DNA from: Flavobacteriales bacterium
GTDB lineage: Bacteria; Bacteroidota; Bacteroidia; Flavobacteriales; TMED113
Reading direction: 5' to 3'
DNA: 33,029 bases
NCBI GenBank assembly: GCA_002718035.1
Contig: PBCX01000019.1
Span: forward strand, 1-33,029
Position 1 is the stretch's first letter; every line of letters starts with the position of its first letter. Positions 21-4,777 of this stretch are shown here, piece by piece. The notes under the pieces were generated by a model, which made no database searches, was not told where the DNA came from, and saw only the letters and a program-made list of their open reading frames with translations. The translations under genes and the position numbers were made by a program.

Positions 21-104
21 GATTCTTCTAAATGGTTCGAACTGAGGACGAGAGGGGGAGCAACAGATAAAGCATCTACGAAAGTAGGTGCTTTTATTTT
101 ATAA
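21..104 (+). other. tRNA-like / peptide-tail relic, copy A (repeat GGTTCGA-N13-GGGGGAGCA)
   Basis: After a TAA at 18-20, one plus-strand frame stays open to a TAA at 102-104 and encodes a tail containing W-F-E-x4-G-G-A (codons from 33). The core is GGTTCGA at 34-40, 13 bases, then GGGGGAGCA at 54-62. The same two words with the same 13-base spacing recur at 1249-1277. GGTTCGA matches the T-loop of tRNAs. From memory, some Bacteroidetes GIY-YIG nuclease genes end in such GGA-containing tails, so this may be the 3' remnant of such a gene entering from the left edge; that is unverified. A second frame, open from base 1 to a TGA at 43-45, has no recognisable content. Confidence 0.4.
69..95 (+). 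terminator. Intrinsic terminator hairpin, probably bidirectional
   Basis: The arms AGCATCTAC (71-79) and GTAGGTGCT (84-92) pair around a GAAA tetraloop (80-83) with one G-U pair. Flanking AA and TT extend the stem, and a T-run follows on the plus strand. It ends plus-strand transcription entering from the left. It also touches the stop codon of the minus-strand esterase, so it may serve that gene too, although the T-tract on that side is weak. Confidence 0.7.
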
Positions 105-1119
105 GATATTTTTTCTCAACTGTTCCATCTTCATAGATGTATAATTGGAATCCTTTATTAGTGGTTTCTCTTCCAAAGATGTCCATTGTAGTGATTAGGT
201 TTTCAGGACTGATACTATAAGGCTCTAAATCAGTTGTAGTATTACAACCAATCAAGCCATCTATGTTAAATTTAGACACAAAGTTCCACACCTCCGCAGT
301 TGCGTTAAAATCTTGATTTCCCCATGAAGCTAGTGGCGAAGGCCAATCATGCCCTCCATTTATAATTTTTAATTCTTCCACTGAAACACATCCATCTCCA
401 TTCATCCACAAATAACGCTCTACTGTACTTCCATCAAAACTATTTAAATCAGGGAGTGACTCAATAACTGGATTAATATCGGTATTATTGAAGGTTGACC
501 AATAATTATTAATCTCACTAACTGGATGATACCAACCGTCAAGATCATTATATGGATGAATATCATCATCTGTACCAACAATACTTTGAACCGCAGTTGG
601 ATGAACAAGATTGCAATTATAAAATGCACCTACAAATGCTGCGCCTGCCACTGAACTTATTGCAGCAATTCTATTGTTAAGCCTACATGCTAAATCATAA
701 GTAAACATACCACCTAAAGAATATCCACACGCATAAATTCTCTGTTGATCTATATTATAATTTAATGACACGTCATCTATTATAGCCTCAATAAAAAAAA
801 TATCATCGTGCTCAGTGGGCTCTTTATGTATCCAACTAGTATATCCGGTCTCTGGGTCTTCAAGTGCCTGGGGATAAATCAATATAAACCCAGAACTGTC
901 GGCAATAGAACGAAAATCAGCTTCATAATTCATAAAATCTAAAGCATATCCTGAGCCTCCATGAAGAGCAAGTAAAATTGGGACAGAATTACTATTAGAG
1001 TAGTTCTCAGAAACATAAATTAAGTATTCTCGGTTGTTGTTATCAAAATTTAAATTTTCTGTTTGTAATTGCCCAAAGCTCAATATTGGTATAATCAGTA
1101 GGAGTAGTAGTTTGTTCAT
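94..1119 (-). CDS. Secreted PHB-depolymerase/feruloyl-esterase-like alpha/beta hydrolase with short T9SS-type tail
   Basis: This is a 341-residue serine hydrolase of the LpqC/poly(3-hydroxybutyrate) depolymerase-like esterase family. Residues 1-17 form a signal peptide ending in FGQ. ALHGGSG near 51-57 is the oxyanion-hole strand. The nucleophile is Ser134 in GYSLGG, the acid is probably within Asp184-186, and the base is His257 in GGHDWPS. The last 40 residues (about 301-341) have the look of a short flavobacterial T9SS sorting tail, with a [VM]D-x-x-GRET core, a YIYEDGT strand and a basic end. The product is therefore probably exported through Sec and released or anchored by T9SS. The substrate cannot be read; polyester, feruloyl or acetyl-sugar esters are the family options. 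No gene lies immediately upstream. The stop codon abuts the terminator hairpin at 69-95. Confidence 0.85.
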   Translation of the reverse strand: MNKLLLLLIIPILSFGQLQTENLNFDNNNREYLIYVSENYSNSNSVPILLALHGGSGYALDFMNYEADFRSIADSSGFILIYPQALEDPETGYTSWIHKEPTEHDDIFFIEAIIDDVSLNYNIDQQRIYACGYSLGGMFTYDLACRLNNRIAAISSVAGAAFVGAFYNCNLVHPTAVQSIVGTDDDIHPYNDLDGWYHPVSEINNYWSTFNNTDINPVIESLPDLNSFDGSTVERYLWMNGDGCVSVEELKIINGGHDWPSPLASWGNQDFNATAEVWNFVSKFNIDGLIGCNTTTDLEPYSISPENLITTMDIFGRETTNKGFQLYIYEDGTVEKKYLIK

Positions 1120-1305
1120 ATTATAAATATAGTGGTTTAATTAAAGAAATGGAATAGTAACACATAATGATAGTGAATTAAGTTTCTAATTGAAATTCTG
1201 GAATCTCTAAAGATAACAGATATAACTGATGTGCATCTTTCCTTAATTGGTTCGATAATAGCTCAGTAGGGGGAGCAGGCGAAACTGCTACACGTCACAT
1301 TAACT
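1120..1305. other. Intergenic region with gene relic
   Basis: About 190 bases lie between the esterase start and the hairpin after the caspase gene. The stretch 1120-1229 carries stops in every frame and no motif I recognise. From 1230 it contains copy B of the repeat. No convincing TAnnTTTG box was found for the esterase on the minus strand. Confidence 0.4.
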
Positions 1306-1307
1306 AA
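1230..1307 (+). other. tRNA-like / peptide-tail relic, copy B
   Basis: GGTTCGA at 1249-1255 and GGGGGAGCA at 1269-1277 repeat copy A with the identical 13-base spacing, exactly 1215 bases away. In the same relative frame (TGG at 1248) it encodes W-F-D-x4-G-G-A and ends at a TAA at 1305-1307. Upstream the frame is closed by a TGA at 1227-1229, so no full gene remains. Bases 1259-1277 also match a tRNA D-arm consensus (TAGCTCAGT.GG..GAGCA) closely, with GCTC and GAGC able to pair. No complete tRNA can be folded around it. Confidence 0.4.
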
Positions 1308-1332
1308 AGCCCACCTTAATTGGTGGGTTTTT
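1306..1332 (+). terminator. Intrinsic terminator hairpin, probably bidirectional
   Basis: CCCACC (1310-1315) pairs with GGTGGG (1322-1327) around the loop TTAATT. AAAG (1306-1309) pairs with TTTT (1328-1331), giving a T-run on the plus strand and a shorter one on the minus strand. It overlaps the stop codon of the caspase gene by one base, the same layout as the hairpin at 69-95. Confidence 0.75.
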
Positions 1333-3319
1333 AATTAAAATTTTTAATAAAAGTGATTATTTCATCATTTAAATTACTTTTCCCATTCCATGGACTATTT
1401 ATTTGGGACTCAATACTTACAACGTCAGGATAAGCATCAAAGTAAAATTTTTTTAATGGTAATTCATTTTCTAAAATCACATTTATTATTAAATCTAAAT
1501 CATTAAAATCTTTAATTGGAAAATCAAAAAAAACTAAATATTTTTTCAACTCTCTAAATGCTAAGTCAGTAACTTCCAAATCTTTGTAAATCAAAAATTT
1601 GATTAATGCAGAATATCCCTCGAATTCGTTTAGAAAATCAAGTTTATATAGATCTTCCAAAGCAAAATACAACTTACCATTTGAATAATTAAAAATTGCC
1701 CTTCTTAATAAAGGTAAATGAGCATACCCTACCCTGTTTTTATCTAAATCAATAGATAAATTGAAAAATTTTAGTGCTTCATCATAATTTTTAATATAAT
1801 TATATAACTTCCCTAATTGCATATAAACATAACCTTCATCTGGCATCTTTTCAACTGAAACTTTATAATATTTTAATGCCTTTTTTATATCTCCTTTCAT
1901 CTCAAATAAAGATGCTTTTTGATAATATGACCAACCACTAACAGAACTACTAGAATGTTTTTTATCATATTTCAATGCCATATCAACTGATTTTAGAGCT
2001 AAATCAATTTCACTTAAAGATTCATAAATATAAGATTGATTGATGTAAATTGTGCCAAATAGATAATTGCCATTTATTATATCTTTTTCGAAAGTAATAT
2101 AATTGATTTCAGAATTTATAAAATTACGACTATCATCTAAAACATCTAATGCTTTACTAATTATATCAACAGATTCTCTCGTTTTATTTAATTCCCAATT
2201 ATAATATCTTGCTTGTTCTTGAAAAGCAATTGCATTTAATGAATCTAATTTAACCCATTGATTAAGATAATTTTCCTTCAAAGTAGAAATAGCTGATGTA
2301 TTAATAATTCCACAATCTTCTAAATTATTTTCAAAAACAATTTGAGTAAAATAAGCATCAAATTGATATGGATTAATTTCTATTGCTGTTGAATAGTCAA
2401 TTAAAGCATTAAATTGGTCATCCAATAAAAGATGTAAATGAGCTCTTTTGGTTAAAATTTTTGAGCTATTTGGATAAAATTTTAAGAGTGTATTGCAATA
2501 ATCTAAGCCTTTCTTAAAATCTTTATTCAAAATAAATTTATCAATTGTTTTTAATGATGCAGTGATTTTAGGTTTTTTAAAATAAAAGGTCCCGTTTGTT
2601 AATTTTGAATTTTCAACTGGACTTTGTTCTCCTTTAGAAATTTCCTCAACCTCTTTTCTAACGTTTTTAAACACCTGTTCTAGGGAAATATCCTCTTTTA
2701 ATAGATTTTTAGATAAACTTTTACAATAAATACTATTCTCTCTATCTCCATCAGCTGCAGTATCTCCTGCATCTGTTGAAAAAGCAATTAATGAACCCGA
2801 TGGCGGTGATATTTTAGCGAGTCCTGACCCTTTTCCAATTGACCTAGCCTTATTCCAATTACCTTCAAATGGATTGTCCCTACAAGCATCTAAAACAAGA
2901 ATATTTACTTGATCTGTGAAGGAATTCAAAAAAATTAATATATCATTTACATTTAGTCCAAAGAATTTAACTTTTTTTTCAGTATCAAAATTTACCTTTG
3001 TTGGTAGTAAATAGTTTTGTGAACCAATTTGAATTCCATGGCCAGCATAATAAACTAAAGCAACATCATAAAATTCTCTTTTGTCTCCAAATTCAAAAAC
3101 AGCATTTTTAAATTCCGCAAACGTTTCTATATTTTCTTTTAAAATAACATCAAAGTCAAGTTTTTCTAAAGTAGAAGCAATGAGCCTTGCATCATTAACT
3201 GGGTTATTTAATGGCCCTTTATCATAATTAGCATTTCCTATTACTAAAGCTAATCTCTTTTCGTCTTGCTGACATAAAAGAGTTAATGGTATAATCAACA
3301 ATAATAGAAATTTCTTCAT
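1331..3319 (-). CDS. Secreted caspase-like (peptidase C14) protein with TPR repeats
   Basis: A metacaspase-type domain fills about the first 240 residues. It has an N-terminal strand ALVIGNANY, then YYAGHG with catalytic His94, then LDACRDNPF with catalytic Cys146, numbered from the chosen Met. Both dyad residues are present, so it should be an active cysteine protease, possibly specific for basic residues as in metacaspases. The rest is helical TPR-like sequence, with recognisable repeats around 265-335 and 470-560, probably for partner binding. I chose the Met at 3319 because it is followed directly by the signal peptide KKFLLLLIIPLTLLCQQ; the frame stays open to another ATG at 3340, which would add seven polar residues. 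The gene follows the recombinase with a 9 to 30 bp gap on the same strand and may be cotranscribed with it. Secretion points to envelope or extracellular proteolysis rather than cytoplasmic suicide. Confidence 0.85.
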   Translation of the reverse strand: MKKFLLLLIIPLTLLCQQDEKRLALVIGNANYDKGPLNNPVNDARLIASTLEKLDFDVILKENIETFAEFKNAVFEFGDKREFYDVALVYYAGHGIQIGSQNYLLPTKVNFDTEKKVKFFGLNVNDILIFLNSFTDQVNILVLDACRDNPFEGNWNKARSIGKGSGLAKISPPSGSLIAFSTDAGDTAADGDRENSIYCKSLSKNLLKEDISLEQVFKNVRKEVEEISKGEQSPVENSKLTNGTFYFKKPKITASLKTIDKFILNKDFKKGLDYCNTLLKFYPNSSKILTKRAHLHLLLDDQFNALIDYSTAIEINPYQFDAYFTQIVFENNLEDCGIINTSAISTLKENYLNQWVKLDSLNAIAFQEQARYYNWELNKTRESVDIISKALDVLDDSRNFINSEINYITFEKDIINGNYLFGTIYINQSYIYESLSEIDLALKSVDMALKYDKKHSSSSVSGWSYYQKASLFEMKGDIKKALKYYKVSVEKMPDEGYVYMQLGKLYNYIKNYDEALKFFNLSIDLDKNRVGYAHLPLLRRAIFNYSNGKLYFALEDLYKLDFLNEFEGYSALIKFLIYKDLEVTDLAFRELKKYLVFFDFPIKDFNDLDLIINVILENELPLKKFYFDAYPDVVSIESQINSPWNGKSNLNDEIITFIKNFN

Positions 3320-3349
3320 AATGATAGTATTTAGGTACATAAATATAGA

Positions 3350-4561
3350 TTAAAAATCAAATTTTTCATCTCTTTTACTCATTGATAGAGCTAAAGATTT
3401 CATAGGCTCTTTTTTATTTTTCTGAATATAATTATGAAATTGAGACTCTGTTTTGTGCCCTGTAATTGAGATTATATCATAAGTATGGGTTTCTGTTTCC
3501 ATATAATAATTAGTGGCAAAGCTTCTTCTTGCAGTATGAGAGCTTACCCACTTATATTTTGGTTTAGAGACATCAACAATAGAGCCATTAACATCCTTTT
3601 TTAGCATTGTCATATCATCAATACCAGCCCTTTTACATATTTCCTTAATCTTCTTGTTGAATATAGGATTACTATTGAAGTTTGGTAAATCCCCATTGTA
3701 TTTATTTAAAATTTTATGCACCAATTTTGAAATAGGTATTGTTACTCTATGTTTTGTTTTTCTTGTCACAAGTGATAAAATTCCATTTTGAAAATCATCC
3801 TTTTTTAAACTTGTATAATCTTCAAATCTCAATCCAGTATCACAACCAATTAGAAATAAATCTCTAATTATATCTTCACGCTTATTCTCTATTTTTAATT
3901 TCAATATTTTATCATACTCTTCAAAAGTTAGATAAACATCATCGGTTGGTGAACTAGGTTTAGAATACGAATCAAAAATTCTATCTTTTATATATCCTCT
4001 TTTATGAGCAAAATTAAGTATTGACTTTAAATGCTTAATTCTATTTCCTATTGTATTATTAGCATAACCCTTTTCATTACGATAATAAGATATTAAGGAA
4101 TCATATAGCTCCATATTAAATGAACTAAATTGTAATTCTACTCCTAAGTGTTTTTCAAACTCTTTAAAGGTTTTTATGCTAGACTCATATTGTCTTATTG
4201 TTGCATCACTTTTATCATTTTTTGAATTTTCAATAAAATAATTTAAAAACTCTTTGAATGATTTTTGACTATGTGAGAGGCCTTTGATATCATCCATAAT
4301 CATTTTTTTAAATGTGGTTCGATCTGGAATTGAATCAAAGCTTATAATATTAGCATATAACTTCTTTATAGTGTTTTCATATTTATTCAAAACCTCATTA
4401 TATTCAAAAGCATTTGTTGATGCTGGTTTAAATCTTTGTTTTTGTTTTGAAAAGTCTGTTTTATTAACCCTAATGTTTTGAACTATCATAGTTACTCTTT
4501 GCAAATTGTATTGAAATGAGCATCTAATGTATTTATCTTGTTGTCTAAATTTTACATTCAT
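3350..4561 (-). CDS. Tyrosine recombinase / phage-type integrase with SAM-like core-binding domain
   Basis: This 403-residue site-specific recombinase has the usual Bacteroidetes layout: a short arm-binding region (about 1-60), a SAM-like core-binding domain (about 100-190) and a catalytic domain (about 210-390). All catalytic positions are visible: Arg245 in DTGLRFED, a Lys at 268 or 270 in TRKTK, His342 and Arg345 in SSHTARR, His369 in ITGHK, and nucleophile Tyr378 in FHNYIQ. It is therefore probably active. It lies 142 bp beyond the 3' end of tRNA-Arg on the same strand, the typical place for an integrase that uses the tRNA as attachment site. The region ahead of it carries a tandem TGGGCAAATA repeat and an AT-rich palindrome that may bind the recombinase. 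The caspase gene follows within 30 bp. Confidence 0.93.
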   Translation of the reverse strand: MNVKFRQQDKYIRCSFQYNLQRVTMIVQNIRVNKTDFSKQKQRFKPASTNAFEYNEVLNKYENTIKKLYANIISFDSIPDRTTFKKMIMDDIKGLSHSQKSFKEFLNYFIENSKNDKSDATIRQYESSIKTFKEFEKHLGVELQFSSFNMELYDSLISYYRNEKGYANNTIGNRIKHLKSILNFAHKRGYIKDRIFDSYSKPSSPTDDVYLTFEEYDKILKLKIENKREDIIRDLFLIGCDTGLRFEDYTSLKKDDFQNGILSLVTRKTKHRVTIPISKLVHKILNKYNGDLPNFNSNPIFNKKIKEICKRAGIDDMTMLKKDVNGSIVDVSKPKYKWVSSHTARRSFATNYYMETETHTYDIISITGHKTESQFHNYIQKNKKEPMKSLALSMSKRDEKFDF

Positions 4562-4571
4562 ATTAAAAAAT

Positions 4572-4593
4572 TGGGCAAATAGGTGGGCAAATA
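4572..4593 (-). repeat. Tandem direct repeat TATTTGCCCA ahead of the recombinase
   Basis: On the minus strand TATTTGCCCA occurs twice, separated by CC (plus strand TGGGCAAATA at 4572-4581 and 4584-4593), giving a 12-bp period 11 bp upstream of the recombinase ATG. The period is close to one helical turn, so two protein copies could bind the same face. Candidate roles are arm-type recombinase sites or an operator overlapping the promoter; each TATTTG also partly resembles the Bacteroidetes -7 box. The role is inferred. Confidence 0.5.
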
Positions 4594-4616
4594 TGCATTA
4601 TAAATGTTTATATATA

Positions 4617-4646
4617 TTTATATTAATATAAAGAATTTAATATAAA
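4617..4646. repeat. AT-rich palindrome and direct repeat between tRNA-Arg and recombinase
   Basis: TTTATATTAATATAAA at 4617-4632 is a perfect 16-bp palindrome. Its right part TTAATATAAA is repeated directly at 4637-4646, 14 bp on. The location in the probable attachment region suggests recombinase or excisionase binding, but such words also arise by chance in DNA this AT-rich. Confidence 0.35.
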
Positions 4647-4703
4647 CTTATCTGTTAAAAAGGATTTTTTGTAAAAATGAATAAATAAAAGAAAATATCA
4701 TTG

Positions 4704-4777
4704 TGACCCCGGCAGGATTCGAACCTGCAACCAACAGAGCCGAAATCTATCATTCTATCCAGTTGAACTACGGGGCC
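4704..4777 (-). tRNA. tRNA-Arg, anticodon UCG
   Basis: The cloverleaf folds fully on the minus strand. The acceptor stem GGCCCCG/CGGGGTC has one G-U pair, the D-stem is GTTC/GAAT, the anticodon stem ATAGA/TCTGT carries the loop TTTCGGC (anticodon TCG at 34-36), there is a 5-base variable loop, and the T-stem GCAGG/CCTGC carries TTCGAAT. The discriminator is A at 4704. CCA is not encoded. It reads CGA and probably other CGN arginine codons. Its 3' end faces the recombinase gene, making it the likely attachment site of an island. Confidence 0.96.

Follow-up and report, generated by a model that had tools for sequence, protein, structure and literature searches.

Copies of a tRNA-Asn 3' end as probable attachment sites in an additive hypervariable island of a Flavobacteriales family

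Two copies of a short motif in a Flavobacteriales genome are, in our assessment with a probability of roughly 85%, attachment sites that go back to the tRNA-Asn 3' end, at which mobile units build up an additive hypervariable island. The window in which they lie, 33,029 nucleotides long, is contig C13 of this genome (here G000), taken from contig base 1. Comparison with related genomes reveals the identity of the site, the independent assortment of its two halves, breakpoints at or near a common core and a conserved chromosomal context. Since the core of the motif is a tRNA-Asn end, this end recurs within a 51-bp repeat in relative G006, and the halves pair freely, nearly always at the core, we read the copies as attachment sites.

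Results

The motif and the end of tRNA-Asn

The motif GGTTCGA-N13-GGGGGAGCA occurs twice in the window with zero mismatches in either copy and, as a preliminary description of this DNA had stated, with identical spacing (Table 1). A pattern scan allowing up to 3 mismatches still returned just these 2 copies against 0.02 expected. The same description saw in them a repeated module of motif, terminator hairpin and stop codon. Each hairpin does reach a stop codon on the minus strand: the first, with a stem of 11 bp and a T-rich tail, overlaps that of the esterase-like gene (94-96), and the T-run behind the second abuts that of the caspase gene (1331-1333). However, the two hairpins have no sequence kinship and follow the motif after 6 nt and about 32 nt, respectively; motif and hairpin are therefore not one fixed module. 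As the window begins at contig base 1, its left side was explored via relatives only.

What had been overlooked is that both parts belong to tRNA-Asn, the core being its 3' end and the first hairpin its terminator. Indeed, GGGGGAGCA is the tRNA-Asn 3' end, the tRNA-Asn of G006, G000 and others terminating in ...AGGGGGAGCA. The array of G006 terminates at the tRNA-Asn gene, where tRNA 3' end and terminator together read GGTTCGAGTCCTAGAGGGGGAGCAACAGATAAAGCATCTACGAAAGTGGGTGCTTTT, and hairpin 1 of the window is this same terminator (R1). Here an exact 51-bp direct repeat, made up of the tRNA-Asn end from the acceptor stem plus the terminator, recurs 727 bp apart with a single gene inside the unit that it bounds; as looked for in a tRNA-targeted island, a tRNA 3'-end direct repeat thus stands at the far end of the inserted unit. 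The conserved border tRNA with variable genes 3' of it, likewise looked for in an island, was also found: across 10 genomes the 5' side of tRNA-Asn carries the same core genes and the 3' side is variable. The conserved gene order beside the tRNA is kinase, rnhA-like, formyltransferase-like, acyl carrier protein, ketosynthase and pyruvate kinase (names by sequence recognition). In these 10 genomes GGGGGAGCA of tRNA-Asn is directly followed by R1 (five genomes), R4 (two) or R2', R5 and R6 (one each); the tRNA-Asn of G073 has GGGGGAGCT in place of GGGGGAGCA before the downstream half. A reading of the module as an independent small RNA was abandoned after the tRNA-Asn match, and Rfam held no known RNA family for it.

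Table 1. Features at the left end of the window
Feature	Position	Strand	Basis or remark
Arm A, truncated by contig start	1..33		Arm and site 62/62 identical to two G073 copies
Site A (motif)	34..62	+	APPLVLSSN... on the minus strand, in frame with the recombinase
Core GGGGGAGCA of site A	54..62	+	Identical to tRNA-Asn 3' end
R1, native tRNA-Asn downstream sequence and terminator (hairpin 69-94)	63..100	+	Same sequence after tRNA-Asn in G006, G050, G032, G020 and G058; terminator scan
Esterase-like secreted protein gene	94..1119	-	Only cargo of the 1,215-bp unit between both cores
Arm B and site B, 141-bp element	1137..1277		98.6% identical to the G032 copy
Orphan reading frame APPTELLSNQLRKDAHQLYLLSLEIPEFQLET, followed by a stop	1178..1276	-	Predicted native serine recombinase C-terminus, from frame continuity
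Site B (motif), core 1269-1277	1249..1277	+	Motif scan and half-site comparison
R2 half-site, hairpin 1310-1327	1278..1330	+	Close variant after tRNA-Asn in G073
Caspase-TPR protein gene	1331..3340	-	PF00656, E=1.1e-35
Tyrosine recombinase of the tRNA-Arg island	3350..4561	-	PF00589 and PF13102
tRNA-Arg(tcg), insertion point of the island holding the two sites	4703..4777	-	3'-end repeat in L011 and L075

Re-pairing of half-sites among relatives

All genomes compared are draft single-cell or metagenome assemblies, one per species, with contigs that often end at the repeats described here. Allowing one mismatch at most, we found the motif in 6 of 12 family genomes and a reversed control pattern in none. 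A GTDB scan with an extended pattern, covering one genome per species, gave matches in this family only (AG-333-I18, AG-343-M05 and MAG NAT88). A viral origin of the motif was considered and rejected, the 14 IMG/VR matches having unrelated, coding-like flanks and being judged chance; a match in G239, in an unrelated context, was set aside.

By comparison of flanks, the sequence left of the core belongs, besides tRNA-Asn, to one of three arm types (A, B, C) and that to the right to one of six types (R1-R6), and the two sides combine independently. Thus tRNA-Asn pairs with R1, R2', R4, R5 and R6, arm A with R1, R2 and R3 (the last marking, in G073, the joint to the end of the tRNA-Arg island), arm B with R2 and R4, and arm C with R1 and R2'. 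The change of partner falls nearly always at the core, as is characteristic of halves exchanged at one shared point. R2 junctions break 7-8 nt off the core, and the sequence right of the core is unconserved; these breaks may involve another activity.

The further copies that the preliminary description proposed to look for are present, with exchanged flanks; its reading of them as recombination sites at unit ends is supported, and the genes between the sites vary. The esterase-like gene has a counterpart in G073 that is 84.7% identical at the nucleotide level and has different flanks, and the G032 copy of the element formed by arm B and site B sits between unrelated genes. Arm B is 98.6% identical between G000 and G032 as against 63% amino acid identity for PorZ, arms being more conserved between species than genes. 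Because arms are nearly identical between species, movement of the units appears to be recent.

Separately, R2 half-sites join at a small palindrome, TAGCG-nnn-CGCTA (L128 290-360; window 1278-1330), and one R2 joint, in front of the serine recombinase unit, lacks the GGGGGAGCA core. The palindrome may represent a further type of recombination site.

Gene arrays around the sites

The genes around the sites are small, often encode secreted proteins and form long, mostly co-directional runs. These arrays differ between genomes, having gene families in common in a different order. Homologous array genes match from start to stop codon and differ in their flanks, which is weak evidence alone because intergenic DNA diverges quickly. 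A second point overlooked earlier is that the site is present at only some junctions: most have no recognisable one, so the units are not tagged singly as in an integron. The cassette array first suspected here stands as regards sites at unit ends and variable genes between them, but not as regards a site after every gene or a tyrosine recombinase as its partner.

A candidate serine recombinase at tRNA-Asn

A 511-aa large serine recombinase abuts tRNA-Asn in G000 (G000:C3). It matches PF00239 (E=1.8e-35), the phrog_95 integrase (E=5e-83) and, above cut-off, PF07508; with PF13408 present below its cut-off, the protein combines a resolvase catalytic domain, a recombinase domain and a zinc ribbon, the last at sub-cut-off level. 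The gene is adjacent to the attachment site both here and at G097:C53, the only two tRNA-Asn loci at which it was seen, in the latter as a mere C-terminal fragment. Its phage and plasmid relatives are all less than 60% identical. Searches of viral contigs found nothing close to the recombinase or the R4-core junction, and searches of phages, plasmids and viral contigs nothing close to the arm peptide.

The reading frame of the recombinase is open for 503 codons to the core, passing through the R4 hairpin and on into the tRNA antisense. The protein ends in ...TRLSSN/APPLGLEPRTL before the stop, and the G097 fragment has the same tail. In G032 the same hairpin frame (KNTRLSSY) extends across arm B, where it reads APPTELLSNQLRKDAHQLYLLSLEIPEFQLET; related endings in that frame are encoded by arms A and C, and the arm frames have APP..L.SN.L in common. 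Of the 21 variable columns in arm C, most (13) are third codon positions (p=0.007), and the arm A copy at G073:C3:60102 has a stop codon within the recombinase frame. None of the genomes examined yielded a full-length recombinase that ends in a native arm. On the simplest reading of these frames, arms A, B and C would be orphaned native C-termini of the serine recombinase. To judge from its sequence and position, this tRNA-Asn-directed enzyme is somewhat likely to be the catalyst, and it is a better candidate than the tyrosine integrase of the window.

Discussion

How the island may grow

We envisage that the target of mobile units, often of a single gene, would be the 3' end of tRNA-Asn or a copy of it already in place. 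Each unit would supply a terminator that re-closes the tRNA transcript, and its far end would be left with an arm and the tRNA-like tail GGGGGAGCA. Repeated rounds of insertion would produce an additive island, with arms and terminators changing partners at the core. Because the recombinase gene appears to span the core, integration would swap its C-terminal tail and orphan the native tail as arm A, B or C; the small units would be non-autonomous and moved in trans. Several observations weigh against this picture: most junctions lack a site, R2 breaks lie off the core, the sequence on its right is unconserved, the recombinase was seen at two loci only, and the window's own copies sit in a tRNA-Arg island. 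We put forward only tentatively, at somewhat under even odds, the fuller proposal of an integron-like serine-recombinase system, in which the recombinase gene crosses its own core, integration at tRNA-Asn replaces the tail APP..L.SN.L...LL..EI with the tRNA-encoded APPLGLEPRTL, possibly switching activity, and the same place gathers single-gene satellites that carry just arm and core.

Alternative explanations

Ordinary tandem tRNA islands, brought in by various integrases of helper phages or islands, could leave a similar picture, with sites that are mostly dead relics and the serine recombinase as one visitor. The many junctions without sites, the occurrence of the serine recombinase in two genomes only and the service of tRNA-Arg by a different (tyrosine) integrase in the same genome would all fit this explanation. 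It is nonetheless unlikely, since it does not account for a recombinase frame that is unbroken through hairpin and core and has both tRNA and arm endings, for the codon-position bias in arm C, or for the near-identity, and hence recent movement, of arms between species.

Spread of intergenic modules through homologous recombination or gene conversion between repeats, with no site-specific recombination, strikes us as improbable. Homology blocks often confined to single genes would agree with it, as would array-specific leaders upstream of many unrelated genes: the leader CTTTCAATACTAAAACCANTATATTTGAA occurs 25 times in five genomes, solely in array contigs (reversed control, 0). However, exchange is concentrated at a core of 9-11 nt that is also present in tRNA-Asn and is too short for efficient homologous exchange, and tRNA-Asn itself takes part.

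Very improbable is the reading originally proposed for this DNA, in which the neighbouring tyrosine integrase drives a cassette array. The adjacency in the window is real, but the integrase adjoins tRNA-Arg and has its own att repeats, the tRNA-Arg 3'-end repeat AATCCTGCCGGGGTCACAATGATATTTTC marking island ends in G073 and G000 (window 4562-4777; L011 8548-8580; L075 7440-7530). Moreover, the other genomes with the motif hold nothing closely related to it (a single 25% match in G020), and G032 carries the motif though its tRNA-Arg locus is empty. The window's motif copies lie within the tRNA-Arg island, the copies having opposite orientations in G000 and G073; a second internal copy of the tRNA-Arg repeat in G000 suggests two islands in tandem. 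The sober alternative of that description, relics of convergent GIY-YIG genes, drew only on a C-terminal resemblance and can practically be dismissed, as this genome has no GIY-YIG (PF01541) match and the sequence belongs to tRNA-Asn, as its 3' end and terminator.

Relation to known systems

Additive flexible islands that carry gene cassettes and show repeats of a tRNA end are known from Ca. Actinomarinales (PMC7771536), Ca. Methylopumilus (fGI-2; PMC10872708) and Alteromonas (fGI1; PMC4119200), and the tRNA-Asn system belongs among them. The islands are alike in having a tRNA gene as target, cassettes that are added and a tRNA-end direct repeat at the cassette end, and in two of the three cases the hosts are streamlined aquatic bacteria. 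A lack of sites at most junctions is reported for other islands too, the latest insertions remaining identifiable by the tRNA repeat (PMC7771536), and inter-genus transfer is reported for Actinomarinales. The present case differs in that the tRNA terminator forms part of the repeat, half-sites have visibly changed partners, the arms are coding-like and the frame of a serine recombinase runs across the core; the terminator in the repeat, the half-site mixing and the frame across the core are not described in the available portions of PMC7771536, PMC10872708 and PMC4119200. What is new here is a tail-swapping recombinase, as predicted from its frame, together with mix-and-match half-sites, as a variant of known islands.

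Tycheposons (Prochlorococcus; Methylophilaceae, PMC10872708) are likewise tRNA-bounded cargo islands of streamlined aquatic bacteria, but they are described as having a tyrosine recombinase and a size of 4-200 kb, whereas the units here can be 0.7-1.2 kb. At the tRNA-Asn border we looked for a tyrosine recombinase and found one of serine type.

As in integrons and CALIN, there is a co-directional, mostly single-gene array with recombination sites and a fixed primary site by conserved genes; unlike there, a tRNA end serves as the site, and it is absent from most junctions. The integron integrase model IntI (TIGR02249) gave nothing above cut-off in 12 genomes, the proteins found being mostly of Xer length (~300 aa).

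In mycobacteriophage integration-dependent immunity the attachment site lies within a coding sequence, and integration alters the C-terminus of the protein. The gene concerned there is the repressor, whereas here it would be the recombinase itself.

Streamlined ocean bacteria have tiny genomes, yet their accessory genes vary. For this Flavobacteriales family, that variation can now be tied to a docking site that is identifiable, to unit ends that can be read and to a candidate enzyme, and the arrangement accounts for a tRNA gene that retains its terminator across repeated insertions. The tail swap, if true, would be a simple built-in switch for the direction of recombination.

Leaders and recurring cargo

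A near-identical leader of 37-45 nt, with promoter-like TATATTTG/TATATTTA and a start codon, was noticed in the L010, L012 and L041 arrays. It stands before unrelated genes, in arrays only, and often provides the stop codon of the preceding gene. Caspase-domain proteins are a recurring, possibly defence-related cargo (window 1331-3340; L075 7592-9406; L039 2082-3404; PADLOC caspase model). A small cold-shock-like gene is repeatedly reversed in the arrays (G073:C3 near L010 8277-8465; G032:C19; G020:C36) and is 89% identical at the nucleotide level between two species.
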